From positions 40,432 through 104,431 of IMG/VR virus record IMGVR_UViG_3300030085_004590: 64,000 nucleotides of DNA; one strand, 5' to 3'. Under the pieces are notes generated by a model. It ran no database searches, was not told the origin of the DNA, and saw only the letters and a list, made by a program, of their open reading frames with translations. The position numbers and the translations under genes were made by a program. Below are positions 21,948 through 42,492 of this stretch, piece by piece. Source of the DNA: a virus. The number at the start of each line of letters is the position of its first letter. Positions within the stretch are counted from its first letter, which is position 1.

Positions 21948-24900
21948 ATGAACAAACTCTCACAATTTCTTGTAGAGCAAATGCTCCTAGAGGATGAAAG
22001 TCCTATTAAGAAGGTCGTAGTAGTATATGGTGGTAGGTTTCAACCTATGCACAAAGGACACTACGGTACATACCAACATCTTGTCAAAAAATTCGGTAGA
22101 AATAATGTTTTTATCAGTACTTCCAACAAAGTAGAAAGACCAAAATCACCTTTTAACTTCAAAGAGAAGGTGAAAATCATGACTACAATGTTCAATATAC
22201 CTAAATCAAAAATAGTACAGGTAAAAAACAATTATGCTCCAACAGAAATCCTCAAAAAATACGATAAAAACACAACCGCCTTCATAACCGTTGTTGGTGA
22301 AAAGGATGCAGGAAGATTGGGTGGAAAGTATTTCAAACCATGGAAAGGAAAAGCAGAGGTTGGTTATGAGGATGGTGGTTATGTTTATGCCGCACCATCA
22401 AGTGGTGGTGGTATAAGCGGAACTGAAACTCGTAATGGGTTATCAGTAGGGTCGGATGACCAGAAGAAGTCTTTCTTTAAATCTCGTGCATATGGAAAGT
22501 TCAATGCAACGATTTTTAAGATGATTACGGACAAACTTAATGAGGGAGTAATCGAGATTTCTAAAGAAAGGATTGAAGAATGGCTCATCAACGAAAGTTC
22601 GAAGATGAGTTCAGGTCAAGTGGATGATGGGCCAAACTTCTTTTTCCCTAACTATGATGTATATTCTCGTATCAATGTAAAAAGAGCAGCAAAGATTGGA
22701 TTTGAGGTAGTAAATATGATTACTTCTAAAGAAATCGAGGATTACTATGACCATCCAAGTTATCCTGATGGGCCAGTAAAGGCAGTTACTTATTTCCCTG
22801 CTGGTGTTTTGGGTACAACAACCGCAACAAACCAAATTGATATTTATTCATCAAAAGCGTATTCCGATTGGTACAAACATTCAACTCGTAAAGCATCAAT
22901 GGTTGGTTATGAGTTAGTTAAATCACTTGCAAATAAAGAAGATTTAAAACAAGATAAAGAACAATCAGTAGAAGATGCAAAAGGAGATAAGGTTTCTCAG
23001 AAAGAATACGAAGCATCTTTAAATGAAGCAATTACATTACCAGTTGAAGTTGGTGATACAATTCTAACTGGTAGATTTAAAAACAAAAAAACAGTTGTTA
23101 AAACTATTGGTAAAGATGAACATGGAATGCCAACTATTAATGGTAGAAAAGTTGTAAACTTTAGATTAGTGAAAGAAGGATTCCAAGCAATTTTTGAAGA
23201 TGATGCAGATAAATATACTCATGTAGGTGGTGGTAACTACAAACCAAAAGGAAAAGAAGATGATGAAGATGCACCTACTTTCAATAAAGATGGAGATAGA
23301 TTTGTTCAAGTAGATAAAGGTGGTGATGATAAACCACAAGATGCTAAATCAAAAATTAGTGGTAAAGATATGTTCAAACATTCACCAGATATTAAAAAAG
23401 AAAAAGAACCCAAAAAACAAGGATTCTTTTCTAAATTATTTGGTCTACCAAGTTCACCAGAAGAAAAGAAAAAAGTACTTACACTTAAAAGTATAGAAAA
23501 TGTAGATGATAAAGAGTTTGCAAAACACATTAAGAAAAAAGTATTACCAAACCTACCAGATAAAAGTAAAGAAGAACTTAAACCTATTTTACAAAAGTAT
23601 GTTGAACTAAAAAAACAACTTAAGAAAACAGATGATGATGATGAACAATCAGAAATAATGTATAAACAAGATAAGATTCGTGATTATGTTTATGATTATA
23701 CAAAAGAAAAAATGAATGAGATTGCTGGTACGGCAGTTGATTGTGAAAAGTGTAATCACTCTTGGGATATAGAGGCAAATGATAATGAAAAATATTTATG
23801 TCATAATTGTGGATGGGATTCACAAAAACAAGAGTATGATTATGATGCATTTGATTCATGGCAGGAAAAAATGGGATTGAATGAAAGAAGTAAAGGTAAA
23901 TTAAGACCTGCTGATTTACTAAGAAGAAAAGCAGCAATGGCTGGTAAACGAGCTGCAATTGCAAGAAGAAGAAAAAGAACTATGATGAGGAGAAAACCTC
24001 TTGCTAAACTAAAAAAGATTGCATACAAAAAAGCATACCTACAAGTTTATGATGAGTTTATGAAGGATTTATTTCCTGGTATGAAGAAAAAGGATTTATC
24101 AATCCAACAAGCAAAGATAGTTCATAAGAATGTATTAAGAAAAAAGAAAAGAGTTCTTAAAAGAGCAAGATTTAAATTCTTACCTGCTTTAAGAGCAAAA
24201 GAGGCAGAAAAATTCGGTGATAAATCAGAAACAAACGAATTAATGATTGGATATGCAGGACCTGAAGATATGAAAAGGTTTGCAAAGAGAAATAAAGAAT
24301 ATAGAAAAGATGCTGAATCAAGTAAGGAGTATCAATACGAACCAATTAAAGAACAATCAGATAAAAAAACACAATGTATCAATAACTTTGTAGAATATGC
24401 TTGTAAAAGATTAAAACTTGATGGTAATCCAAAGATATCTTTGATGAGTGGTACAGAATATGCAGATACTCATAAAAGTTTAGGTGGTTTCAATCCACAA
24501 ACAAAAGAAATCTATGTTGCAACTGAAAATAGATTAACTGCTGATATTTGTAGAACGATTGCACATGAATTAGTTCATAGAAAACAAGATGAGATGGGAT
24601 TATTAAAAGACCCAATCAAAGATGGAGCAGATGGTTCACCGATTGAAAATCAAGCACATGCAGTTGCAGGAATTATAATGAGAGAATATGGTAGAATTGA
24701 TGATACAATTTACCAAGAAGGAATTAACTCTTTTTATTACGATGATTTAGCAAAGTATGTTTACAAAAAAAGAGGAGAGATTAACAGATTATTCAAAAAC
24801 TTACCTGATGAGAAAAAGGCTGAGTATTTAGAAAAACTTTACATCAAATTATTCCAGGGCCCAACTTCAAGAATGGTACATAGAGATATCAAAGGTAAGG

Positions 24901-27359
24901 GTGGTGAATTATTAAAGATGTTGAGAAAGGATAGAAGATTAAAAGAACAATGTGAAAGATTACCAAACGAATCAGAACAAGATTACAGAAGGAGATGTTT
25001 TGGTTACAATCCTTTAACTCCACCACCTGCAGGATTACAAAGATTAGGTGAGAATAAAGCAACAAGAACAAAATTCAATTTAACAATACCTTCTGATATT
25101 AAAAAACTTCAAAAGGCATTTAAGAAAGATAAAAAACAACTTTATGTAGTTGGTGGAGCAGTTAGAGATGCACTTCTTGGTAAAAAACCAAAAGATTTTG
25201 ATTTAACAACAGATGCAACACCAGAAGAAATGATTAAGATTGCGAAACAAGGTAAATTTAAACATTCTACAACAAATGTAAATGCAAATCTTGATTTAGG
25301 AAGTATAATCATCAATGGACACGAAGTAACTACATTCAGACAAGATGTTGGTAAAGGTAGGAGACCAGATAAAGTAGTTTATTGTGATATTTCAACAGAT
25401 TCTAAGAGAAGAGATTTAACTTGTAACTCTTTATACTACGATATTGATAAAAAAGAGATTATTGATTTCCATGGTGGTGTAGAAGATTTGAAAAAAGGAG
25501 TTATTAGAACAGTTGGTAAAGCAAAAGAAAGATTTGATGAGGACCCATTAAGAAAATTAAGAGCAGTAAGGTTCGAAACTCGATTAGGTGCTAAATTAGA
25601 TAAAGAAACTTTAGATGCACTTAAAAAAGATAACAAAATAACACAACTTTCATATCAAAGAATAAGTGATGAGTTTATAAGTGCAATAAAACAATCAAAA
25701 AACACTAAAGTTTACTTAGATAGATGTGATGAAGTTGGGTTTACACCACAAATTCTACCAGGTCTTAAAGTAAGTAAACCATATCCACACGATAATAACC
25801 CAATTACTTTAATGGCATTTATTCTAAGAGATAATGACCCTGCAAAAGTAGGTAAAATATTAAATAAAATCAATTATAGTAATGAAATTAAAGATGCAAT
25901 AGTGTTTTTAATATCATTAAAAGGATTTAAACCTGAATTGATTGTACCATTTAAGAAACTACATGATAAAATAAAGTTATCAGATAGTGATATTGTAGAT
26001 TTTGGTAAAAGAATTGGTAAAAAACTTGATAAATTTGTTAAATTCAAGTTATCTGTAAAAGGAAAAGATGTACCAAAGGATATACCCGATGGGCCAGAGA
26101 AAGGTTTGTGGATAAAGAATAGAGAAAAAGAACTATTCATGAAAGAAGGTATCCTTACAGAAGGTGGTGCGTATGGACATATGTCTCACCCATTCGATAC
26201 TGATATCAATTTAACCTTTGGACAACTAAAAGATATCGTAAATCGTGCACTCGAAGGTACACTTGAATTCACAAGAGAGAAAACTGATGGTCAAGCTCTT
26301 GCAATTTCATGGAGAGATGGAAGATTAGTAGCAGCAAGAAACAAAGGACACCTAAAAAACAAAGGTGAGAACGCTTTAGATATCAAAGGAGTATCAGATA
26401 AGTTCCAAGGTAGAGGTGGATTATCAGATGCATACAATTATGCGATGAAAGACCTTTCAAATGCAATCAAAGCACTTACAGATAAACAAAGAGATAAGAT
26501 TTTTAAACAAGGTGCGTGTTTTATGAACCTTGAAGTGATATATCCAACATCAGTTAATGTCATTCCTTACGGCCAGGCGTTACTTGTGTTCCATGGAACG
26601 ATGGAATATGATATGGAAGGTAAGGCAATTGGTGAAAATGGTGAAGCAGCAAGAATATTAGCTGGTATGATTAAACAAGTTAACAAAGATGTACAAGATA
26701 ACTACACTATTCAAGGGCCACCAATTGTAAAGTTACCTAAATCACAAGATTTATCAAAGAAAAGAGCAAAATATTCATCTCAAATCTCTAAATTACAAAA
26801 AGAATTCAAATTAAAGGATACAGATGGTGTTGCAAACTATCATCAAGCATGGTGGGAACAATGGGTTGATAAAAACTCACCAACAACACTCGATAATAAA
26901 ACCAAAATGGGGTTAGTTAAGAGATGGGCTTTCATGGATAAGAAATTTAGATTGGATAATAAGAATATTTCTGATTCTAAAACACTTGAATGGGCTAAGA
27001 AAACAGATAAAGATAATCATAAGAAGATATCAAAAGATAATCTAATGAAGTTTGAGAAAATCTTCTTAGGATTAGGTGCAGAAGTATTAGAATTTACTTC
27101 ATCTGCACTTACAGTTAATCCTGATAAGGCAGTTCGTGATATAAAGAAACGAATTGATAAAACAATCAAAGATGTTAAGAAATCAGGTGACCCAAAAAAG
27201 ATAGAAAAACTAAAATTAGAACTTGGTAGGTTAAATTCTATTGGTGGTTCTAAGAAAATTGTACCAAATGAAGGTATAGTATTTTTATATAAAGGAAATA
27301 CTTTTAAACTTACAGGTACATTTGCATCTGTAAACCAAATCCTTGGTATTTTCTTCTAA
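21948..27359 (+). CDS. 1803-aa multi-enzyme protein, probable head polyprotein
   Basis: The product begins with a capsid-targeting-like peptide (MNKLSQFLVE). Seen in order: a nucleotidyltransferase with HKGH (35-38) and ISGTETR (156-162), of NMNAT/cytidylyltransferase type; an unassigned region (about 217-360); an SH3/KOW-like segment after residue 361; a zinc ribbon CxxC-x15-CxxC (599, 602, 618, 621); a very basic region (about 647-802); a metallopeptidase HELVH (873-877) with Glu900 as possible third ligand; a CCA-adding/poly(A)-polymerase-like domain with GGAVRD (1069-1074) and DFD (1083-1085); and a ligase-like covalent nucleotidyltransferase with KTDG (1445-1448), LEVIYP (Glu1529), EGIVF (1775) and FKLTG (Lys1787). 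L/I-x-E sites lie between the modules (199, 216, 360, 646, 802, 1035, 1405). Cleavage by gp21 and packaging are inferred. Confidence 0.85.
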   Translation: MNKLSQFLVEQMLLEDESPIKKVVVVYGGRFQPMHKGHYGTYQHLVKKFGRNNVFISTSNKVERPKSPFNFKEKVKIMTTMFNIPKSKIVQVKNNYAPTEILKKYDKNTTAFITVVGEKDAGRLGGKYFKPWKGKAEVGYEDGGYVYAAPSSGGGISGTETRNGLSVGSDDQKKSFFKSRAYGKFNATIFKMITDKLNEGVIEISKERIEEWLINESSKMSSGQVDDGPNFFFPNYDVYSRINVKRAAKIGFEVVNMITSKEIEDYYDHPSYPDGPVKAVTYFPAGVLGTTTATNQIDIYSSKAYSDWYKHSTRKASMVGYELVKSLANKEDLKQDKEQSVEDAKGDKVSQKEYEASLNEAITLPVEVGDTILTGRFKNKKTVVKTIGKDEHGMPTINGRKVVNFRLVKEGFQAIFEDDADKYTHVGGGNYKPKGKEDDEDAPTFNKDGDRFVQVDKGGDDKPQDAKSKISGKDMFKHSPDIKKEKEPKKQGFFSKLFGLPSSPEEKKKVLTLKSIENVDDKEFAKHIKKKVLPNLPDKSKEELKPILQKYVELKKQLKKTDDDDEQSEIMYKQDKIRDYVYDYTKEKMNEIAGTAVDCEKCNHSWDIEANDNEKYLCHNCGWDSQKQEYDYDAFDSWQEKMGLNERSKGKLRPADLLRRKAAMAGKRAAIARRRKRTMMRRKPLAKLKKIAYKKAYLQVYDEFMKDLFPGMKKKDLSIQQAKIVHKNVLRKKKRVLKRARFKFLPALRAKEAEKFGDKSETNELMIGYAGPEDMKRFAKRNKEYRKDAESSKEYQYEPIKEQSDKKTQCINNFVEYACKRLKLDGNPKISLMSGTEYADTHKSLGGFNPQTKEIYVATENRLTADICRTIAHELVHRKQDEMGLLKDPIKDGADGSPIENQAHAVAGIIMREYGRIDDTIYQEGINSFYYDDLAKYVYKKRGEINRLFKNLPDEKKAEYLEKLYIKLFQGPTSRMVHRDIKGKGGELLKMLRKDRRLKEQCERLPNESEQDYRRRCFGYNPLTPPPAGLQRLGENKATRTKFNLTIPSDIKKLQKAFKKDKKQLYVVGGAVRDALLGKKPKDFDLTTDATPEEMIKIAKQGKFKHSTTNVNANLDLGSIIINGHEVTTFRQDVGKGRRPDKVVYCDISTDSKRRDLTCNSLYYDIDKKEIIDFHGGVEDLKKGVIRTVGKAKERFDEDPLRKLRAVRFETRLGAKLDKETLDALKKDNKITQLSYQRISDEFISAIKQSKNTKVYLDRCDEVGFTPQILPGLKVSKPYPHDNNPITLMAFILRDNDPAKVGKILNKINYSNEIKDAIVFLISLKGFKPELIVPFKKLHDKIKLSDSDIVDFGKRIGKKLDKFVKFKLSVKGKDVPKDIPDGPEKGLWIKNREKELFMKEGILTEGGAYGHMSHPFDTDINLTFGQLKDIVNRALEGTLEFTREKTDGQALAISWRDGRLVAARNKGHLKNKGENALDIKGVSDKFQGRGGLSDAYNYAMKDLSNAIKALTDKQRDKIFKQGACFMNLEVIYPTSVNVIPYGQALLVFHGTMEYDMEGKAIGENGEAARILAGMIKQVNKDVQDNYTIQGPPIVKLPKSQDLSKKRAKYSSQISKLQKEFKLKDTDGVANYHQAWWEQWVDKNSPTTLDNKTKMGLVKRWAFMDKKFRLDNKNISDSKTLEWAKKTDKDNHKKISKDNLMKFEKIFLGLGAEVLEFTSSALTVNPDKAVRDIKKRIDKTIKDVKKSGDPKKIEKLKLELGRLNSIGGSKKIVPNEGIVFLYKGNTFKLTGTFASVNQILGIFF

Positions 27360-28752: not shown

Positions 28753-30345
28753 ATGGCAAAAACATCTTTAAAAGATATAATCAAGATTGAGTATCAGAAA
28801 TGTGCCTCAGACCCAATACACTTCATGAAGAAGTATTGTATGATTCAACATCCTGTCCGAGGTAAGATACCATTTCACTTATTTCCTTTTCAAGAAAGAA
28901 CTTTAGATGAATTTACCAAACATAGATACAACATTATTCTAAAATCAAGACAGACAGGTATCTCAACCTTAACTGCAGGATTTGCATTATGGAAAATGTT
29001 GTTTAATCAAGATTTTAATGTATTAGTTATTGCGACTAAACAAGAAGTTGCTAAGAACCTTGTAACGAAGGTTCGTGTAATGAACCAATACTTACCAAGT
29101 TGGTTAAAACAAACAACAGTAGAAGATAACAAACTATCTCTACGATACTCCAATGGTTCACAAATCAAAGCAACATCAGCAGCTGGTGATGCTGGTCGTT
29201 CTGAAGCATTATCCTTATTAGTATTTGATGAGGCAGCTTTCATTGATAAGATTGAAGATATATGGATATCAGCACAATCTACCCTTTCAACAGGTGGTAA
29301 CGCAATTATCCTTTCAACACCCAATGGTGTCGGAAATTTCTTTCACAAAACTTGGGTAGGTGCAGAAGAAGAAGAAAATGGGTTCAATACAATCAGATTA
29401 CATTGGACAGTTCATCCTGAAAGAAATCAAGATTGGAGAGATGAACAAGAAAAGTTATTGGGAGTAAAAGGTGCAGCACAAGAATGTGATTGTGATTTCG
29501 TTTCTTCTGGTGATACAGTTATTGACCCACAACTTTTACAATTTTACAAAGAATCTTATATTCAAGAACCAATTGAAAAGACAGGATTTGATGGAAACCT
29601 TTGGAAATGGGAATATCCAAATTACAACAAAGGTTACATGGTTGTTGCCGATGTTGCGAGAGGAGATTCAACCGATTATTCGGCATGTCATGTAATTGAT
29701 ATTGAACAAGCAACTCAAGTTGCAGAATATAAAGGTAAATTAGATACAAAAGATTTTGGAAACTTTCTTGTATCACTTGCAACTGATTACAATCAAGCAT
29801 TACTTGTTATTGAGAATGCAAATATTGGTTGGGCAGTAATACAACAAGTAATTGATAGAGGTTATCAAAATCTATTCTACATGAGTAAGGATTTAAAATA
29901 TGTAGATGTTGAACATCAACTATCAAATAGATATAGAGCCGAGGAACGAGGAATGGTTGCAGGATTTTCTACAACTTCTAAAACACGACCTTTGATTATA
30001 TCAAAGTTAGATGATTATTTTAGAGATAAATCAGTAACAGTTCGTTCAGCAAGATTAATCGATGAATTATTCACTTTTATATGGAAAGGAAATAGGGCAG
30101 AAGCAATGCAAGGATACAACGATGATTTAACAATGTCATTCGCAATTGGTCTTTGGGTTAGAGATACTGCACTTAGATTAAGACAAGAAGGAATTGATTT
30201 AACTAAACAAGCATTGGGTGGTATTGGAGCACATCAATTAGATATTGCAGGTATGGGATTTGGTGGTAATACTCAATTAGAAGATAATCCTTGGAAACAA
30301 AGAGTTGGTGATAGAGATGAGGATTTAACTTGGTTAATTAAATAA
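28753..30345 (+). CDS. 17: Terminase large subunit (gp17-like)
   Basis: This 530-residue motor and nuclease packages DNA into the prohead. The ATPase has Walker A SRQTGIST at residues 65-72 and Walker B LLVFDEAAF with Asp159/Glu160. The RNase H-like nuclease begins at VVADVARGDSTDY with the metal ligand Asp300, and a second acidic patch lies in the region IENANIGWAVIQQ. Length and motif order match T4 gp17-type TerL. It is adjacent to portal and head genes, as expected for a late packaging module. The start ATG follows the previous stop with no gap and no clear Shine-Dalgarno sequence. Confidence 0.95.
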   Translation: MAKTSLKDIIKIEYQKCASDPIHFMKKYCMIQHPVRGKIPFHLFPFQERTLDEFTKHRYNIILKSRQTGISTLTAGFALWKMLFNQDFNVLVIATKQEVAKNLVTKVRVMNQYLPSWLKQTTVEDNKLSLRYSNGSQIKATSAAGDAGRSEALSLLVFDEAAFIDKIEDIWISAQSTLSTGGNAIILSTPNGVGNFFHKTWVGAEEEENGFNTIRLHWTVHPERNQDWRDEQEKLLGVKGAAQECDCDFVSSGDTVIDPQLLQFYKESYIQEPIEKTGFDGNLWKWEYPNYNKGYMVVADVARGDSTDYSACHVIDIEQATQVAEYKGKLDTKDFGNFLVSLATDYNQALLVIENANIGWAVIQQVIDRGYQNLFYMSKDLKYVDVEHQLSNRYRAEERGMVAGFSTTSKTRPLIISKLDDYFRDKSVTVRSARLIDELFTFIWKGNRAEAMQGYNDDLTMSFAIGLWVRDTALRLRQEGIDLTKQALGGIGAHQLDIAGMGFGGNTQLEDNPWKQRVGDRDEDLTWLIK

Positions 30346-30376: not shown

Positions 30377-30757
30377 ATGATTTCAATGAAAAACTTACTT
30401 AATGAAAACGAAAGTTATTGTAGTGAATACTATGTAGAAAACTATCACGATATAAAAGAATTCGTAGAATTCATGAAATCGTATAAAGAAGATATCAACG
30501 AGGCAGAATACCAAGGAAGAAAAGTAAAACTTGGTAAACCAATGCAAGGTGATGTTAAGAAATTCAAAGTATATGTTAAAAATCCCCAAGGTAATGTAGT
30601 AAAAGTAAACTTTGGTCATAAAGGAAAAGGTGGAGAGAAAACAATGTCAATCAAAAAGAATAATCCTCAAAGGAGAAAATCTTTTAGAGCAAGACATAAT
30701 TGTGATAACCCAGGTCCAAGACACAAAGCAAGATACTGGTCATGTAGAGCATGGTAA
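30377..30757 (+). CDS. Small head-associated protein with capsid-targeting-like N terminus
   Basis: This 126-residue protein is preceded by AAGGAG at good spacing. The N terminus MISMKNLLNENE resembles T4 internal-protein targeting peptides (M-K-x-x-x-F/L-I/L-x-E) and contains L-N-E; a second site, I-N-E-A, occurs near residue 40. The C-terminal half is basic, with KVYVKNPQGNVVKVNFG, then SFRARHNCDNPGPRHKARYW and a final SCRAW. I recall similar FRARHNC...YWSC ends on head-region proteins of T4-like marine phages, but with no known function. It sits between terminase and portal, where T4 has the tail sheath and tube genes. Confidence 0.7.
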   Translation: MISMKNLLNENESYCSEYYVENYHDIKEFVEFMKSYKEDINEAEYQGRKVKLGKPMQGDVKKFKVYVKNPQGNVVKVNFGHKGKGGEKTMSIKKNNPQRRKSFRARHNCDNPGPRHKARYWSCRAW

Positions 30758-34252: not shown

Positions 34253-34429
34253 ATGACTAAAAGAGAATTGTACGATATCATCAATGAGGAAATCGTTAAC
34301 TTTAAAAAAGGAAAAATTAACGAAGAACTCACCGAATCTGATAAAAATCTAATTAGAAAAATTATCAGACAAGAAGTATCTGCAATCTTTTTTGATTTGT
34401 TTAAGAAAAGAAAAACTTGGGGAGCATAA
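34253..34429 (+). CDS. Small head-region protein, 58 aa
   Basis: An ATG at 34253, 1 base after the previous stop, opens a 58-codon frame ending TAA at 34427-34429. The product starts MTKRELYDIINEEIVNF and contains two I-N-E sites (DIINEE, KINEEL). It is wholly helical and charged, ending KKRKTWGA. Its stop overlaps the ATG of the protease gene (TAATG), which argues strongly that it is real. It may be an internal head or core peptide; no family recognised. Confidence 0.7.
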   Translation: MTKRELYDIINEEIVNFKKGKINEELTESDKNLIRKIIRQEVSAIFFDLFKKRKTWGA

Positions 34430-35022
34430 TGAATAAATTACTAATAGAAACAAGATTATTCGAGGGTAAGGTAAACGAAGATGATAGTGGAAGAACTATC
34501 GTTAAGGGTATTCTACAAAGAGCTGGTGCAGAAAATCAGAATGGTAGAATATATCCTAAACCTATCCTTATGAGAGAAGCAAAGAAATACGAACAACTAA
34601 TTAAAGAAAGAAGAGCATTAGGTGAATTAGACCATCCTGATTCTTCTGTAATCAACCTAAAGAATGTATCTCACAATGTAAGAGAGATTCATTGGGATGG
34701 TGATGATTTAGTAGGAACAGTTGAGATTTTACCAACCCCAAGCGGTAACATCTTAAAAGAACTTTTACAAGCAGGTATTCTATTAGGTATTTCATCAAGA
34801 GGTATGGGTTCAGTAGAACCTTTGACTGGTGGTAAAGTTCAAGTAGGTGAAGATTTTGAATTAATCGGTTGGGATTTCGTATCTAACCCATCTACTCATG
34901 GAGCATTTATGGTTCCTATGAACGAATCTGTGAACAAACAAATTCAAGAACAAGCAGTAGTTTGTAATGAATGGTGTAAGGCACAAGATATGATGAGAGA
35001 AATTATAACAGAATTAAATTAA
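34429..35022 (+). CDS. 21: Prohead core protease (gp21-like)
   Basis: The ATG at 34429 (MNKLLIETRLF) overlaps the previous stop and gives 197 residues. A longer reading from a TTG at 34417 is less likely. The T4-type prohead protease fold shows GRIYPKPILMREAKKY near residue 35, GELDHPDSS with the catalytic His69, and LGISSRGMGSVEP with Ser122/Ser123 near the nucleophile position. VGWDFVSNP-like sequence (IGWDFVSNPSTHGAFM) closes the domain. The enzyme cuts scaffold, capsid and internal proteins, in T4 after (I/L)-x-E. Its own neighbours are full of such sites. Confidence 0.9.
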   Translation: MNKLLIETRLFEGKVNEDDSGRTIVKGILQRAGAENQNGRIYPKPILMREAKKYEQLIKERRALGELDHPDSSVINLKNVSHNVREIHWDGDDLVGTVEILPTPSGNILKELLQAGILLGISSRGMGSVEPLTGGKVQVGEDFELIGWDFVSNPSTHGAFMVPMNESVNKQIQEQAVVCNEWCKAQDMMREIITELN

Positions 35023-35026
35023 GGTT

Positions 35027-35215
35027 ATGGGATTTAATGTACAGGACTTTATGTCCAAAAATAAATTTAAGTTGGGTAAAGTTACCAGAGAAGTAGGAGA
35101 AACTCCATTCAAAGGTGGACACAACGATATAAGAAAAACAAACTATGAAGTTAAGTTAACCGAAGATGGTAAACTTGATTTATATACACATAAAACGGAG
35201 ACAAAAGAATTATGA
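35027..35215 (+). CDS. Small hypothetical protein, 62 aa
   Basis: This 62-residue protein begins 4 bases after gp21, with a weak ribosome site (TTAAGG then TTATG), and its stop overlaps the ATG of the next gene. The sequence starts GFNVQDFMSKNKFKLGKVTR and ends in a Thr/Lys-rich stretch (YTHKTETKEL). No known domain. Tight coupling on both sides supports it as a gene of the head cassette. Confidence 0.65.
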   Translation: MGFNVQDFMSKNKFKLGKVTREVGETPFKGGHNDIRKTNYEVKLTEDGKLDLYTHKTETKEL

Positions 35216-36351
35216 TTAAATTAGGTGGTCTTGTAACTCTTAAACCGATTACTGAAGCAGATGTATTCACTGCTACAAGTAAAGAAACTGGTACAACTTC
35301 TGTATTCAAATCAAAAGCAGCAAGAGATGCTGCAATCAAAGCAGGTACTCACGAAAAAAGAAAAGATGATAAAGATGGTGCAGTTAAAGACCCAACAGAT
35401 AAACCTAAAGTAAACATATTCAACAAAGATAAAGAAGAACCTAAAAAGGATGAACCTAAAGATGATGGTAGACCAAAAGATTCAACTGGTGGTAGAGCAG
35501 GTAATCCTGAAGTAAACAAAGCAGTTCGCCAAAAAGCAAAAGATTTAGGAGTTCATCCAAATAACTTAGGAAGAAAAGAATATGAAAGAAGAATGAAAAA
35601 AGCGGCAGTAGAAGCACTAACTGATTCAAACTTTCATTCTGAAGCAAGAAAACTAATTTCAGTATTAGAAGATAAACCAGAATGGGCAAAAGACCCAAAT
35701 CAAGACCCTAACAAACCAGATATTTTTTCACCTGAATATAAAGAATGGGAAAAAACAAGTGTATATTCATCTGATTTATATGATTCAGCACCTGGTACTG
35801 ATGAAATCGCTCATGAAGCAAGTAACCAAGCTGGATGGGATGGTGTATCTGCATTAGATGCAATCGCATTTGATTTAAAAATGAATGGAAGTAAAGAATT
35901 AGCTGCAAAAATTCAATCAGCAATTGAAAATACTAATGAATCTACAAGATTAGGTAAATTATTACCAGAAGGTTTACTTAGAGAAGGTACTCGTTCACAA
36001 GTTGGTATCATCGATAGAAGTGGTAAGATTGCATCAATCTATGTTCACTATGATGGATATCCAAGAAATATGAAACCTGCACTTAAAAAACATATGAAGA
36101 ACGAAAAAGATGTTCTTAAGTTAATTAAGATGGGTGGAGCAAGTGGTATTTATGCTGATAAACCAGAAGTACCTTATTATAAAAAAGGTAATGGTATGAA
36201 ACCTTTAAAGGGTTCAAACAAAGATATTTATGGATTTATAGATAAAACTAAAGATTCATGGGCAGAGTATTTATATTTATACAATATGAAGGATAGAAAA
36301 TGGTACTATGCTGACACATATAAAGATAAAGAACTAAAAAAATTATTTTAA
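35212..36351 (+). CDS. Head-region protein with processed-leader features, 379 aa
   Basis: The N terminus (MIKLGGLVTLKPITEADVF) has an I-T-E site that could release a short leader. A disordered Lys/Asp/Pro-rich segment follows (about residues 45-100), then a helical part (NPEVNKAVRQKAKDLGVHPN, about 100-145). A second site, LLREGTRSQ, precedes a compact C-terminal domain (from about residue 262, VGIIDRSGKIASIYVHYDGY) that reads like a small conserved phage domain of unknown function. I infer an internal head protein possibly split by gp21. No catalytic residues identified. Confidence 0.65.
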   Translation: MIKLGGLVTLKPITEADVFTATSKETGTTSVFKSKAARDAAIKAGTHEKRKDDKDGAVKDPTDKPKVNIFNKDKEEPKKDEPKDDGRPKDSTGGRAGNPEVNKAVRQKAKDLGVHPNNLGRKEYERRMKKAAVEALTDSNFHSEARKLISVLEDKPEWAKDPNQDPNKPDIFSPEYKEWEKTSVYSSDLYDSAPGTDEIAHEASNQAGWDGVSALDAIAFDLKMNGSKELAAKIQSAIENTNESTRLGKLLPEGLLREGTRSQVGIIDRSGKIASIYVHYDGYPRNMKPALKKHMKNEKDVLKLIKMGGASGIYADKPEVPYYKKGNGMKPLKGSNKDIYGFIDKTKDSWAEYLYLYNMKDRKWYYADTYKDKELKKLF

Positions 36352-36361
36352 GGATAGAAAA

Positions 36362-36736
36362 ATGAAACTATTAGATATCTTAAAAGAAGAAATAACTGCT
36401 AGAGAATTGAAAGATGCTCTTCGTAGTAGACCATATGATATTCAAGTACTTAGTCGATTTTTAATGGATAAAGTAAAGAATTTTAATGGATTAGGATATC
36501 CTGGTTATAACACTTACAAATTAAACTTTAAATCACCAGTACAAGGATTAAAAACCAATGCTAAAAGTAATGGTAAGAGTAAAGAACATATGATAAGTGG
36601 TAAAGAATTAAAAAGTTTAATACCAAATATACTTAAAAAATCAGGTAAAGTAAATTTAGTTTACAAAATAACAAAACAAAGTGTATTCAAACCAGGCATG
36701 ACAATAGGCGGTGAAGGGTATTGGATAGTAAAATAA
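36362..36736 (+). CDS. Small protein with capsid-targeting-like N terminus, 124 aa
   Basis: It starts MKLLDILKEEITARELKDAL, very like T4 capsid-targeting peptides, with L-K-E at residues 7-9. The rest is basic and mixed alpha/beta (LGYPGYNTYKLNFKSPVQG, ending KPGMTIGGEGYWIVK). It lies 10 bases after the previous gene with a short AAGGA in the gap. Likely an internal head protein; function unknown. Confidence 0.65.
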   Translation: MKLLDILKEEITARELKDALRSRPYDIQVLSRFLMDKVKNFNGLGYPGYNTYKLNFKSPVQGLKTNAKSNGKSKEHMISGKELKSLIPNILKKSGKVNLVYKITKQSVFKPGMTIGGEGYWIVK

Positions 36737-36754: not shown

Positions 36755-37468
36755 ATGAAACTAACCCAACTAATGAAAGAAAACGAAGAAAGACCTCTAT
36801 CTAACGAGGTTAAAAGACATTTTCTTGAAATTGTTTCTACTTACAACAAGTATCAAGAATCAATGGATAGAAAATCAGATATTACCCAAGTAGCAGAAAC
36901 CCTTGGTGGAATTACTGAAGCTGCTAGAACACTTGCAATCAAAGAAGCAGGAGATTGGTTCGATAAACATACTGTAAAGAGAAACATGAGTGAATTGGAT
37001 AAGTTGGGTAAACAATTCGATAAAGTTGCTCTTGAGGCTCGTGCACTTGACCAAAGAATGGCAGGATTATACGAGGATATGGGACACATCCTTTCAAGAT
37101 ACTATAAGTTCGGTGAGATTACTGAAGATGAAATGAAAAACAGATTAGGTATTAACGAAACTAAAGAAGAAGATTGTGGATGTAACCCAATTAATGAACA
37201 ACCTGTAACAGTACACAACAGAACTTCCAATGGAAACATTGTTACTACACTAAAAGAATCAGATTTAAACGAAGAAGAAATGAAACTTTATGAGTTTGGT
37301 AAAAAAGTAACTAAACTTATGGAGAAGAGTTGTCCAAATGACCCAGGTAAATGGGCAGCATCTAAAGCAGCAGCAAAAAAGAAGTTTGATGTATATCCTT
37401 CTGCTTACGCTAATGGATGGGCTGCAAAAAACTACAAGGGTAAGGGTGGAACTTGGAAAAACTGCTAA
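36755..37468 (+). CDS. Head-region protein with capsid-targeting-like N terminus and Trp/Gly-rich end
   Basis: It is preceded by AAGGAG (36743-36748, 6-base spacing). The 237-residue product begins MKLTQLMKENEERPL, a targeting-like leader. A helical domain follows (residues ~20-135), then GCNPINEQPVTVHN with an I-N-E site, then DLNEEEMKLYEFG with L-N-E, and a final ~45-residue module (SCPNDPGKWAASKAAAKKKF, SAYANGWAAKNYKGKGG). The end module resembles a short domain frequent in phage head-region proteins. I infer that gp21 separates the helical domain from this module. Confidence 0.7.
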   Translation: MKLTQLMKENEERPLSNEVKRHFLEIVSTYNKYQESMDRKSDITQVAETLGGITEAARTLAIKEAGDWFDKHTVKRNMSELDKLGKQFDKVALEARALDQRMAGLYEDMGHILSRYYKFGEITEDEMKNRLGINETKEEDCGCNPINEQPVTVHNRTSNGNIVTTLKESDLNEEEMKLYEFGKKVTKLMEKSCPNDPGKWAASKAAAKKKFDVYPSAYANGWAAKNYKGKGGTWKNC

Positions 37469-37477
37469 GGAGTAACA

Positions 37478-38359
37478 ATGAAACTCACAATATCAAAACC
37501 CTTTAAATCCAACGATAGAACTTTTGAAAAAGTATTCGGTCTTTTCAATAAGAAAGATTACTTTAATGTAAAAGGTTTGGCAAAAGTACAAATCGGAAAC
37601 TTCGAAAGAGCACTTCAGAAAAATGATAAAAATGCTCAACAAGTTTTAGATATGTTTAAGGGTGATGATAAAAAAGCAAAAGAATATATTATTCAAGTAA
37701 TCCACGATAGAAAGAAAGAACAAGCATTTAACGATTACAAAGCACTTAAAGATGCAGTTGATTCAATTCAAAAAGGAAAACCTAATGTTGGTGCAGTTGA
37801 TTATGTAAAAAGAATCATCCACAATAACAACCAAAAGTATTCAATCGCTTTGTATAGTGCAATTAGTGGTAAAAAATTTAATAACTACAAAGATATTCAT
37901 AAAGATATAGATTCTTCAATAAACGAAGGACAAAAAAGATACAATCAAAAAGATGGTGTTGGTAAATCAAAATATGTAATCTCTTACCACGATGGTAAAA
38001 AGAAACATAAAGATGGTAGTGATTTCTTTGATATCCAAATTTTTAGAAACAAAAAAGATTTAGCAAAGTTTGTTAATACATTACACAAAGGTGGATACAA
38101 ATATGGATTCGCTGAAACACTAAACGAATCTAAAACGAAAGAAAGCAAAATTGTTCAGATGATGTACAAATATGCTCCAAAAGAGAAACAATTTTACACT
38201 AAATTAGCACAACACGAAAAAAGAATTGGTCCAAGAGATTATATAAAATTTATTTATAGTGCTCTTAAAGGATTAGGTTTAGACCCAAGAAAATATAGAC
38301 AAGCACATCAAATACCTGATGCAGAAGAAAAAATTTATCAAACAATATCAAAAAAATGA
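37478..38359 (+). CDS. Head-region protein, possible gp21 substrate, 293 aa
   Basis: It is preceded by AAGGAG (37467-37472, 5-base spacing). The 293-residue basic, helical product starts MKLTISKPFKSNDRTFEKVF. Two sites, SINEGQKRY (about residue 149) and TLNESKTKE (about residue 218), split it into three similarly sized parts. The middle part is a small alpha/beta unit (GKSKYVISYHDGKKKHKDGS). Unlike its neighbours the N terminus has no obvious short targeting peptide. Its stop overlaps the next ATG by 4 bases. Function unknown. Confidence 0.65.
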   Translation: MKLTISKPFKSNDRTFEKVFGLFNKKDYFNVKGLAKVQIGNFERALQKNDKNAQQVLDMFKGDDKKAKEYIIQVIHDRKKEQAFNDYKALKDAVDSIQKGKPNVGAVDYVKRIIHNNNQKYSIALYSAISGKKFNNYKDIHKDIDSSINEGQKRYNQKDGVGKSKYVISYHDGKKKHKDGSDFFDIQIFRNKKDLAKFVNTLHKGGYKYGFAETLNESKTKESKIVQMMYKYAPKEKQFYTKLAQHEKRIGPRDYIKFIYSALKGLGLDPRKYRQAHQIPDAEEKIYQTISKK

Positions 38360-38715
38360 TTAAATTAAGAAATTTACTTAACGAAAGAGTACATTTCTAT
38401 GGAAATGCAAAAGTTCTACTCCAATCAAAAGCAAAAGATGCGGAACTACCATCTCAACAAGTTGAGTTCAAGTTTAATTATGCATATCCTGATTTCTTAG
38501 GTGAAGGACCAACTTTAACTTGTATCCCAAAAAGTTCAAAAGATTTAGATAAGATTGATACTTTAGGTAGTATATCAAAAGATGACATTTGTAAACAATT
38601 AGCAGAGTTCGCATCAAAGAAAACAAAACAAAAGTTTGTACCAATCGATTACAGACATCTTGACCAATACGCAATAGCATTAGATATCGAACCTATTTTA
38701 AAGAAGATAAGATAA
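38356..38715 (+). CDS. Small protein with capsid-targeting-like N terminus, 119 aa
   Basis: It starts MIKLRNLLNERVHFYGNAKV; L-N-E at residues 8-10 gives a predicted 10-residue leader of T4 capsid-targeting type. The remainder (about 109 residues) is mixed alpha/beta with DFLGEGPTLTCIPKSSKDLD. It overlaps both neighbours by 4 and 1 bases. Likely an internal head protein of unknown function. Confidence 0.65.
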   Translation: MIKLRNLLNERVHFYGNAKVLLQSKAKDAELPSQQVEFKFNYAYPDFLGEGPTLTCIPKSSKDLDKIDTLGSISKDDICKQLAEFASKKTKQKFVPIDYRHLDQYAIALDIEPILKKIR

Positions 38716-39599: not shown

Positions 39600-40859
39600 A
39601 TGGCAAATTCAAATTTATTGAAAGAAGCTATTGCTGATGCTAAAGCTGTTAGAGAAACTGCTATTGCTAATGCTAAAATCGCTCTTGAAGAAGCTTTCAC
39701 TCCAAGACTACAATCTATCCTTTCTCAAAAACTTCAGCAAGAAATTGAAGGAGAAGATGAGAAACACGAAGAAGTAGAAGAAGGAACTTACAACGCTGAT
39801 GGTGAAGAAGAAATCACTGCAGAAGGTGAAGAGGAAGTTAATGAAGAGTACGATAAAGATGATGCTCCTGACGCAGGTGCTTCTGATATCGGTGATGGAG
39901 ACAATAAGCAACCTGCAGATGATGCTAATAGTTCATCAGATGTAGCTCAAGGAAACCCTGATACTGAAGTCGAAACTGCACCAGTTGGTTCTGAAGAGGA
40001 CGATACTGAAGTAGTTAAAGAAGGCGAAGAATCAGAGGAAGAAGATTCAGTAGAAGAAACTGTATCTGAAGATTCTCACGAAGAGGAAGAATCTAACGAA
40101 GGATATATGGAAGATTCACACGAAGAAGAAGATTCAGTAGATGAAGAACTTGATTTAGAATCAATCATTAAGGAACTTGAAGCAGAACTTTCTGAAGAAG
40201 AAGGTGCTGACCACGAAGAGGAACTTGATGCTGAGGAAAAAGAAGAAGTTGAAGATATCGCTGATGACGCTGTTGATTCTCATGAAGATGAGAAACACGA
40301 AGAAGAAGTGGAAGAAGAAATGTATTCTGAAGAAGATGACTCTGAAGAAGAAGATTTAGATGAAGAAATCGATTTAGAAGAAATCCTAAGAGAAATGGGA
40401 TATGGTTCTGAAGAGGAAGTTTCTGAAGGTGAAGATTCTGAAGAAGAAAAAGAAGAGGTTGAAGAAAACAACGAATTAGAAGAAGTAAAAGCTGAGTTAA
40501 ACGAAGCAATTTCTACTATTAAAGAGTTGAAGTCTACAATCAATGAAGTAAATCTATTAAACGCTAAATTACTTTACACTAACAAATTGTTCAGAGCTTA
40601 TGAACTAAACAACGACCAAAAACACAAAGTTGTTGAAACATTAGACAGAACTAAAAATGTTAGAGAAGTAAAATTAGTATTCTCAACATTAGCTGAGAGT
40701 TTCAAAATAGGTGGAACTTCAAAGAAACAAAAACAAGCTAAAATTAACGAATCATTCGCATCTAAACCAGTTGCATCGACTGCTCCTAAAAAAGAAGTAA
40801 TCGCTGAATCAACTAACACGATGGCTGATAGATTCAAAAAATTAGCAAACATTAATTAA
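39600..40859 (+). CDS. 22: Prohead scaffold/core protein (gp22-like)
   Basis: This 419-residue, extremely Glu/Asp-rich protein sits directly before the major capsid gene, as gp22 does in T4. The N terminus (SNLLKEAIADAKAVRETAIA, ALEEAFTPRLQSILSQKL) is the helical segment I associate with gp22-type scaffolds of marine T4-like phages. A long acidic central region (about residues 48-300) follows, then a helical, more basic C terminus with LNEAISTIKEL, INEVNLL and KINESFASK, candidate gp21 cuts. In T4 the scaffold is degraded by gp21 before packaging. Cytoplasmic assembly, late expression. Confidence 0.85.
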   Translation: MANSNLLKEAIADAKAVRETAIANAKIALEEAFTPRLQSILSQKLQQEIEGEDEKHEEVEEGTYNADGEEEITAEGEEEVNEEYDKDDAPDAGASDIGDGDNKQPADDANSSSDVAQGNPDTEVETAPVGSEEDDTEVVKEGEESEEEDSVEETVSEDSHEEEESNEGYMEDSHEEEDSVDEELDLESIIKELEAELSEEEGADHEEELDAEEKEEVEDIADDAVDSHEDEKHEEEVEEEMYSEEDDSEEEDLDEEIDLEEILREMGYGSEEEVSEGEDSEEEKEEVEENNELEEVKAELNEAISTIKELKSTINEVNLLNAKLLYTNKLFRAYELNNDQKHKVVETLDRTKNVREVKLVFSTLAESFKIGGTSKKQKQAKINESFASKPVASTAPKKEVIAESTNTMADRFKKLANIN

Positions 40860-40887: not shown

Positions 40888-42492
40888 ATGGCAAATTTTG
40901 ATTTATCTAAACTTATGGAAGGAAAGAACCCACAACAAGTTATGCTTGCTGAGACAAGAGAACTTAAGTCAAAGTGGGACCAAACTGGACTTCTTGAAGG
41001 TTTAAACGAAAGAGAGCAATCTCAAATCTCTGTACTTCTTGAAAACCAAGCAAAACAATTGCTAGATGAAGCTACTAACACTGGTACTTCAGCAGGTTCA
41101 GAGGAGTGGAGTGGTGTTGCTCTTCCATTGGTACGAAGAATTTTTGGTGAAATCGCATCTAAAGAATTCGTTTCGGTACAACCAATGAACTTACCTTCTG
41201 GACTTATTTTCTATTTAGATTTTAAGTACGGAACTGCACAACCAGGTAACCCTGCATTCAACGGAAAATCACTTTTCGGTGGTACAGGTTCAGACCTTGG
41301 TTCAACTGACTCTGCAACTAACGGTCTTTATGGCGAGGGTAGATTTGCATATTCAGTAAACGATGTAACTGATTCAGTTGCAAATGGTGATTTAACAGTA
41401 GCTTCTGCTTCATGGGCAGATGTAAACTACGATGCTGATTTATCTGCATCAGTTGCTGACAAATCATTAATGAAAATTACATTCGCTCATTCTGAGTTGA
41501 CAAGACCTGACTTAGATGCAGTAAGAAGTTACTACATCTCAGCATCAGATTTTGCAACTGCAGATGCTTATTACCCAGCTCACTCACAGGTTTCTGGTGC
41601 AAATATCATTGTATTTGCAAAAGGTGCTGGTTTAGGTATGGCTGATGGATTACAAGTAAAACACTCACAACAACCAGTTGCTGAGAACAGAGGTGATTTC
41701 GAAGATGGAAACGCATCTGCATCAGTAGGAACAGATTTAGGTATTCCTGAAGTTGACCTAGAGTTAAAGTCTGAAGCAATCGTTGCTAAGACTAGAAAAC
41801 TAAAGGCAGTATGGACACCTGAACTTGCTCAAGACCTTAACGCTTACCACTCAATTGACGCTGAAGCTGAATTAACTTCTATGTTATCTGAGTACATCTC
41901 ATTAGAGATTGACTTAGAAATCTTAGATATGTTAAAATCAAACGCTTTAACATCTGAGTATTGGTCAGTAACATTAGGTGAAGAGTACGATGCTAACTCA
42001 ACTTCATGGGTTGCAGGTTCTAACTCTGCTGCTTATACTAAAAACTCTTGGTTCCAAACTTTAGGAGCAAAGATTAATAAAGTAAGTAACAAGATTCACC
42101 AATTAACTCTAAGAGGTGGAGCAAACTTTATCGTTGCTTCTCCAGACGTATGTACGATTTTAGAATCTATACCAGGATTTACTGTATCGGCTGAAAAAGA
42201 TGCTTCATCTTTCGCAGCAGGTGTAACTACTGTTGGTTCTTTATCAAACAGATACACAGTTTACAAAAACCCTTATATGACTTCTAACGAAATCTTATTA
42301 GGATTTAAAGGAAGCAACTTCCTAGAGACTGGAGCTGTTTATGCACCGTATGTACCACTTATCATGACACCTTTAGTGTATGACCCGACTAACTTCACTC
42401 CAAGAAGAGGAGTTATGACGAGATATGCTAAGAAAATGGTAAGACCTGAGTTCTATGGTAAAATCTTCGTTAAAGATTTAAATAACTTATAA
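40888..42492 (+). CDS. 23: Major capsid protein (gp23-like)
   Basis: This 534-residue protein has a strong ribosome site (AAGGAG 40874-40879, 8-base spacing), as fits the most abundant virion protein. LVRRIFGEIASKEFVSVQPM and GLIFYLDFKYGT are the gp23 hallmarks, and APYVPLIMTPLVYDPTNFTP followed by RYAKKMVRPEFYGKIFV closes the HK97-fold region. An N-terminal delta-like segment ends at LLDE, with the predicted gp21 cut after Glu61 (codon for Ala62 at 41071), close to T4's cut after residue 65. A strong terminator follows. Confidence 0.95.
   Translation: MANFDLSKLMEGKNPQQVMLAETRELKSKWDQTGLLEGLNEREQSQISVLLENQAKQLLDEATNTGTSAGSEEWSGVALPLVRRIFGEIASKEFVSVQPMNLPSGLIFYLDFKYGTAQPGNPAFNGKSLFGGTGSDLGSTDSATNGLYGEGRFAYSVNDVTDSVANGDLTVASASWADVNYDADLSASVADKSLMKITFAHSELTRPDLDAVRSYYISASDFATADAYYPAHSQVSGANIIVFAKGAGLGMADGLQVKHSQQPVAENRGDFEDGNASASVGTDLGIPEVDLELKSEAIVAKTRKLKAVWTPELAQDLNAYHSIDAEAELTSMLSEYISLEIDLEILDMLKSNALTSEYWSVTLGEEYDANSTSWVAGSNSAAYTKNSWFQTLGAKINKVSNKIHQLTLRGGANFIVASPDVCTILESIPGFTVSAEKDASSFAAGVTTVGSLSNRYTVYKNPYMTSNEILLGFKGSNFLETGAVYAPYVPLIMTPLVYDPTNFTPRRGVMTRYAKKMVRPEFYGKIFVKDLNNL

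Follow-up and report, generated by a model that had tools for sequence, protein, structure and literature searches.

The chain and its modules

We analyzed a window of 64,000 nucleotides of viral DNA (positions 40,432 to 104,431 of the 123 kb IMG/VR record IMGVR_UViG_3300030085_004590), in which a gene at positions 21948-27359 encodes a candidate virion polyprotein. The gene is a single uninterrupted reading frame of 1803 amino acids, the length given in the original prediction, and it lies in the late-gene region, with terminase, portal (30795), prohead protease and Gp23-type capsid genes downstream. Upstream there is a run of genes that, by inspection, resemble sugar-modifying and glycosyltransferase functions. 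Table 1 lists the modules of the chain together with the head genes that bear on its interpretation.

The original prediction had divided the chain into seven modules, of which two are firmly identified as enzymatic by database searches, whereas the zincin-like, zinc-ribbon, basic and KTDG modules were assigned by motif only. The first of the two is a nicotinamide mononucleotide (NMN)/cytidylyl-type adenylyltransferase, called NMNAT-like here. Its residues 26-117 match Pfam CTP_transf_like (9.8e-07), its predicted structure aligns in Foldseek with NadM, NMNAT and PPAT (NMN and phosphopantetheine adenylyltransferases; prob 1.00), and a PDB profile search matches NMNAT (2e-5). The other is a class II CCA-adding enzyme, which shows both the PolyA_pol head domain (Pfam match at residues 1065-1187) and, across about 370 amino acids, the CCA-enzyme fold (Foldseek).

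In the C-terminal KTDG module, motifs I (KxDG), Ia, III, IIIa, IV and V of the ligase/capping superfamily are present in order. Comparison of 22 divergent relatives (identity down to 36%) shows residues K40, D42, G43, R59, E124, E370-G371 and K382 to be invariant and motif IIIa nearly so. The module had no significant Pfam, PDB-profile or Foldseek match to solved ligases, the Foldseek model being dominated by the CCA module. PDB profile matches to eS6 and to fusion glycoproteins begin outside the motif core, and we judged them to be chance matches of lysine-rich or coiled sequence. We therefore rejected assignment to a specific ligase family and call the module a putative covalent nucleotidyltransferase that is ligase-like by its superfamily motifs only.

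Among the remaining modules, the HELVH module has a weak match to the DUF6782 metallopeptidases, below the cutoff, and module clustering found M3 in about half of the surveyed chains. Family searches with the zinc-ribbon and basic modules returned no informative match, and a relative of the basic module was sought among phage records and not found. The region at residues 413-589 is absent from most relatives; in the AlphaFold model, residues 405-492 have a predicted local distance difference test score (pLDDT) below 50 and residues 491-592 form helices.

Table 1. Predicted modules of the 1803-residue chain and selected head genes in the window (a slash marks a predicted cut)
Feature	Positions	Strand	Basis
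Leader MNKLSQFLVE, residues 1-10, first predicted cut after E10	21948..21977	+	IPIII-like register; model helix 2-13; conserved in clade
Second leader piece, predicted cut at E15 (LLE)	21978..21992	+	LxE in clade chains
NMN/cytidylyl-type adenylyltransferase module, residues 16-199, GRFQPMHKGH	21993..22544	+	Pfam, Foldseek, PDB profile
Module M3, residues 217-360	22596..23027	+	Module clustering
SH3-like module, residues 361-412	23028..23183	+	Model beta strands 371-397; standalone 60-aa gene in LR756502
Region, residues 413-589	23184..23714	+	Low confidence, acidic/lysine-rich to ~490, then predicted helical to ~590
Zinc-ribbon module, residues 590-646, CEKC...CHNC	23715..23885	+	Sequence motif; module cluster C6 in 26 chains
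Very basic helical module, residues 647-802	23886..24353	+	Model helices 654-756, pLDDT ~90
HELVH zincin-like metallopeptidase module, residues 803-1000	24354..24947	+	Motif
35-residue mini-module, residues 1001-1035	24948..25052	+	LxE at both ends; also elsewhere in relatives
CCA-adding enzyme module, residues 1036-1405	25053..26162	+	Pfam PolyA_pol 7.8e-30; PDB by sequence and fold
Ligase-like covalent nucleotidyltransferase module (putative), residues 1406-1803 (E-K-T-D-G)	26163..27356	+	Invariant motifs; standalone genes with leader
Terminase large subunit	28753..30345	+	phrog_2 5.5e-49
Small head-cluster gene, leader MISMKNLLNE/	30377..30757	+	Leader survey of head-cluster genes
Prohead protease, T4 gp21 family	34429..35022	+	Pfam Peptidase_S77 9.1e-27
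Small head-cluster gene, leader MKLLDILKE/	36362..36736	+	Leader survey of head-cluster genes
Small head-cluster gene, leader MIKLRNLLNE/	38356..38715	+	Leader survey of head-cluster genes
Major capsid protein with propeptide, predicted cut LLDE/ATNTG after residue 61	40888..42492	+	Pfam Gp23 1.1e-77

Placement and conservation of the L/I-x-E sites

The phage encodes its own gp21-family (S77) protease, and T4 gp21 cleaves at the motif L/I-x-E (PMC9026906). The chain contains 13 matches to this motif where 16 are expected, in agreement with the earlier caution that so short a motif occurs by chance; consequently, its frequency is no argument for cleavage. Its placement is different. We used AlphaFold models of the chain in two parts (residues 1-802 and 803-1803; mean pLDDT 65 and 69), which are modest overall and not confident throughout the ligase-like part, and defined linkers as segments with a pLDDT below 50, with a tolerance of +/-2 residues. 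Twelve of the 13 sites fall in such low-confidence linkers, compared to 4.0 expected (p=7e-6), and control motifs including [LI]xD, [LI]xK, [KR]xE and [AG]xE show no linker excess. Structure prediction thus bears out the claim that the sites lie between modules. The seven sites listed originally (Glu199, 216, 360, 646, 802, 1035 and 1405) all exist, but that list was short by five linker sites (E10, E15, E211, E417 and E1000). The thirteenth match, E1563, lies within the fold of the ligase-like module, where cutting is improbable. The (L/I)-N-E form pointed out in the original prediction recurs across the family, in whose sites Asn at P2 is 4.3-fold over-represented.

A scan of IMG/VR with the whole chain found 78 loci, and a scan with the C-terminal module found at least 585 confirmed relatives. 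Related chains are 762 to 2104 amino acids long; the modules at either end vary little, while the middle modules are shuffled, absent or moved, as in L031, where the CCA module is placed ahead of the basic module. When 87 non-redundant chains are cut at L/I-x-E, their modules stand in 76 different orders, and 36 module families are present in at least three chains; this count depends on cutting at the motif and is descriptive rather than proof. We compared the motif's positions with the ends of homology blocks (high-scoring segment pairs) between chains, using two non-overlapping sets, the second of which was chosen without chains close to the first. Block boundaries coincided with L/I-x-E 4.3-fold (starts) and 5.2-fold (ends) over expectation among the 27 representatives of the first set, and 4.3-fold and 5.3-fold among the 44 of the second. 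L/I-x-E was the strongest boundary motif tested. The second strongest, [VM]xE, fits a slightly looser P3 position (compare V at P3 in some capsid-protein sites).

The junction before the ligase-like module is the clearest case. In 63/63 distinct 8-residue contexts it reads (L/I)-x-E/GGAYGH, whichever module lies upstream. P3 and P1 are fixed, and P2 is free, taking at least eight residues (T, L, M, N, S, Q, I, K and others). One apparent exception (LLLM in L141) comes from a distant relative whose frame is cut off by the end of the contig.

Two further modules were noted in relatives. Residues 1380-1537 of L031 form an HD-domain module (Pfam 1.2e-08) whose fold contains a conserved SIKE that is probably not cut. 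Residues 728-872 of L202 belong to module C10, present in 18 chains, which has a weak match to the T4 endoribonuclease RegB (2.3e-4, below the Pfam cutoff) and is a possible RNase cargo.

Leaders, fusions and the head-gene cluster

In T4, packaging of IPIII requires ten residues, of which residues 8 and 10 govern processing, and leader fusions bring foreign proteins into the head (PMC9026906). The N terminus of the window chain, MNKLSQFLVE, has L8 and E10, that is, a leader of about ten residues ending in a cut site in the IPIII register, and its proposed resemblance to T4 capsid-targeting peptides therefore holds in both length and register. Most chains of its clade have an LxE at residues 14-16, including chains without one at residue 10.

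The ligase-like module occurs both fused and as its own gene, with the motif at the same junction. In L182, L183, L185, L187 and L205 it is a separate 414-amino-acid gene that starts MIRLHKILNEVLLKE/GGAY, or nearly so, and L186 is fused where the related L182 is split. In L197 and L020, the leader of the standalone gene is embedded in the fused chain, directly before the module. Two distant huge-phage records, LR756500 and LR756502, carry a standalone ligase-like gene with leader MKFLKSYEEFLNENLILE/ and a standalone 60-amino-acid SH3-like gene with leader MKFIKPFALFE/, respectively, each leader ending in the motif at the corresponding junction, and in L119 a separate CCA-type gene starts MITFKSLLVE/. 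Leader and module together thus appear, from these gene arrangements, to behave as a unit that is fused or split. The sole cultured relative, the Microcystis phage Mel-JY01, has the leader MGKLINILLSE/ and the junction IIAE/GGLGG; a literature search on this phage found nothing.

The same signal is found in the neighbouring head genes. An L/I-x-E at leader position is present in 12/19 head-cluster genes and in 13/76 others of the same genome (p=1.5e-4), and the end of the capsid propeptide keeps [LIV]xE/A in the relatives inspected. A terminase motif lies no more than 7 kb downstream of the related chain in 90/95 testable chains. Three further head-cluster proteins (35212-36351, 36755-37468 and 37478-38359) have LxE-type leaders or internal LNE/INE linkers, and in the first of them a phrog_1987 match begins at residue 259, right after LLRE258; the pattern suggests that these are smaller multi-part virion precursors.

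Two other gene arrangements concern parts of the chain. A separate gene in L062 (9400-10944) has the leader MIKLGGLITLKPITE/ followed by an acidic GKEDDExAPTF motif, which is also found at residues ~421-455 of the window polyprotein. Additionally, L273 (10134-10427 and 11210-11317), L274, L280 and L291 carry a split intein in the ligase-like module, exactly between the K and T of KTDG. The polyprotein ends REK/C...KII (the slash here marking the intein boundary), a separate open reading frame follows, and the next gene opens with the intein C-half ending VHN/TDGQ. Pfam Intein_splicing matches both halves, below its curated cutoff, and trans-splicing would join the catalytic lysine to the rest of the ligase-like enzyme. 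A GIY-YIG endonuclease gene with NUMOD3 stands close behind the split ligase-like gene in L280 (11273-12100). The terminase gene of L274 (10994-13630) and L273 (13729-16365) is apparently interrupted as well, with a 284-amino-acid N part, a similar 244-amino-acid open reading frame and another piece, and can be likened to known fractured phage genes.

A chain probably packaged and released by the prohead protease

We consider it likely that the gene encodes a virion polyprotein, packaged by its leader and cut in the head by the gp21-family protease into separate enzymes. The 10-15-residue leader would act as a T4-type capsid-targeting sequence that places the chain in the prohead core, where the protease would remove the leader and cut after (L/I)-x-E in the linkers. 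Inside the head, these cuts would free the NMNAT-like, M3, SH3-like, zinc-ribbon, basic, metallopeptidase, CCA-adding and ligase-like modules. Once released, the enzymes would probably be injected together with the DNA and be active immediately. We strongly infer that the cleavage takes place in the head; the packaging of the chain, its injection and the role of the modules are predictions. Together, these results support the original prediction of a packaged polyprotein cut at linker L/I-x-E sites.

Several observations weigh against this reading. Five of 94 chains lack an LxE within 20 residues of the N terminus, and the leaders of a second clade are just 5-6 residues long (the T4 Alt propeptide has 7; PMC9026906). 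Conserved L/I-x-E motifs also occur inside folds, at E1563 and at SIKE in the relatives' HD module, and the motif alone is therefore insufficient to infer cutting. In the boundary comparison, E-x-[LI] and [LI]-x-x-E show some enrichment, partly through overlap with LxE, and its p-values presume an independence that related sequences lack, so that they are indicative only. In the head-cluster leader comparison, [LI]xK and Ex[LI] give weaker signals.

The chain could instead be an ordinary intracellular multi-domain enzyme that is not packaged, with LxE merely common in the family's linkers and the leader coincidental. Its modules include metabolic enzymes that are also known as free phage proteins, and the overall number of L/I-x-E sites is not above expectation, which speaks for such an enzyme. 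However, P3 and P1 are fixed and P2 is free at junctions between unrelated modules, the enrichment at block boundaries is specific to LxE, standalone forms of the modules carry leaders, and the gene sits in the head/terminase region. We regard an intracellular enzyme as unlikely. Less probable still is a cleaved scaffold or core protein like T4 gp22 or gp67, most fragments of which would leave the head, few having a role, with the enzyme folds as decayed passengers. In T4, core proteins are indeed cleaved at numerous LxE sites and for the most part leave the head (PMC9026906), and the very basic module and disordered stretches of the chain would suit a core protein. Decayed passengers, however, are difficult to reconcile with the invariance of the ligase-like catalytic motifs over the 22 relatives and of the key NMNAT motif residues in the alignment, and a separate acidic scaffold-like gene (39600-40859) stands immediately ahead of the capsid gene.

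The protease might also be the chain itself. In a polyvalent protein, an embedded metallopeptidase module could do the cutting, either ahead of packaging or once the protein has been injected (cf. Iyer et al. 2017), and the HELVH zincin-like module is a candidate, since such a role was proposed for the zincin-like domains of polyvalent proteins, as was self-processing for phage P1 DdrB and N4 virion RNA polymerase (vRNAP)-like proteins (PMC5512222). The module (HE[LM]VH) is present in 36 of 94 distinct chains and missing from the other 58, yet 56 of these 58 keep LxE/GGAY, and in standalone genes, which have no such module, the leader has its cut point at the same place. The sites, moreover, have the documented gp21 motif. 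We therefore rejected self-cleavage as a general mechanism, because most relatives lack the module, and give it very little probability for this chain.

The proposed polyprotein shares features with several known systems. In T4, IPI, IPII, IPIII and Alt carry a capsid-targeting leader that gp21 removes at L/I-x-E, and the window chain resembles these internal proteins in its short leader cut at residue 10, its gp21-family protease, its Gp23-type capsid and its place in the late head region. Unlike them, each of which yields one mature protein, it would use one leader for several enzymes, whose modules are separated by predicted cut sites. The chain also resembles polyvalent proteins (PMC5512222) in joining several unrelated enzymatic domains in one protein, near virion genes, in combinatorial architectures and with presumed delivery alongside the DNA. 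The HELVH module occurs here but not in 58 of 94 related chains, and Pfam did not find the hallmark MuF, portal, ART or ParB domains. Release here would depend on the capsid maturation protease acting at sites conserved between modules rather than on an embedded peptidase, and the targeting sequence is T4-like. A text search of that paper for ligase and nucleotidyltransferase did not bring up the NMNAT/CCA/ligase combination.

Ejection proteins of the phiKZ-like phage SPN3US are packaged, injected and cut after x-x-E by a gp21 homolog (PMC10052503), much as we propose for this chain. Cutting at 13 of the 14 sites mapped in SPN3US takes off an N-terminal propeptide, and the remaining site is the C-terminal cut of the protease itself; the study does not report folded enzymes being separated from one another, as they would be in our proposal. 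The polyproteins of eukaryotic RNA viruses offer an operational analogy only, with one chain, several enzymes, a virus protease and short conserved sites. The proteins are unrelated to them, and the proposed release is linked to assembly inside a DNA-phage head. Our literature search did not turn up any phage polyprotein that a prohead protease cuts into enzymes.

If this reading is true, the capsid maturation protease of tailed phages has a second role, in which it cuts a polyprotein to free enzymes for delivery; our literature search found no description of such a role. The junction motif would then provide a simple read-out of virion cargo in uncultured phages, and the hypothesis could be tested in a cultured phage, Mel-JY01. 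The predicted cargo consists of NMNAT-like, CCA-adding, HD-domain, ligase-like, zincin-like and, in relatives, weakly RegB-like modules and points to repair of transfer RNA (tRNA) and nicotinamide adenine dinucleotide (NAD) at the start of infection. From this cargo, the most plausible role would be to restore tRNA, by CCA addition and ligation and with the HD-domain module of relatives, and NAD lost to host defences. Phage reconstitution of NAD is known (PMC12774641), and nucleases that cut tRNA tails act as immunity (PMC12851939). It is possible, and we put it forward tentatively, that a widespread family of T4-like and larger phages carries a cassette polyprotein serving as a repair kit for RNA and NAD, delivered in the head, released by the protease and exchanged piece by piece between phages at the cleavage sites. 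Each virion would then be pre-loaded against tRNA-cutting and NAD-depleting defences with enzymes including a CCA-adding enzyme that could restore tails cut by, for example, Cas12a3. The Cas12a3 paper states that the means of viral resistance to tRNA-tail cutting is unknown (PMC12851939); a virion-borne CCA-adding enzyme is a candidate for it.
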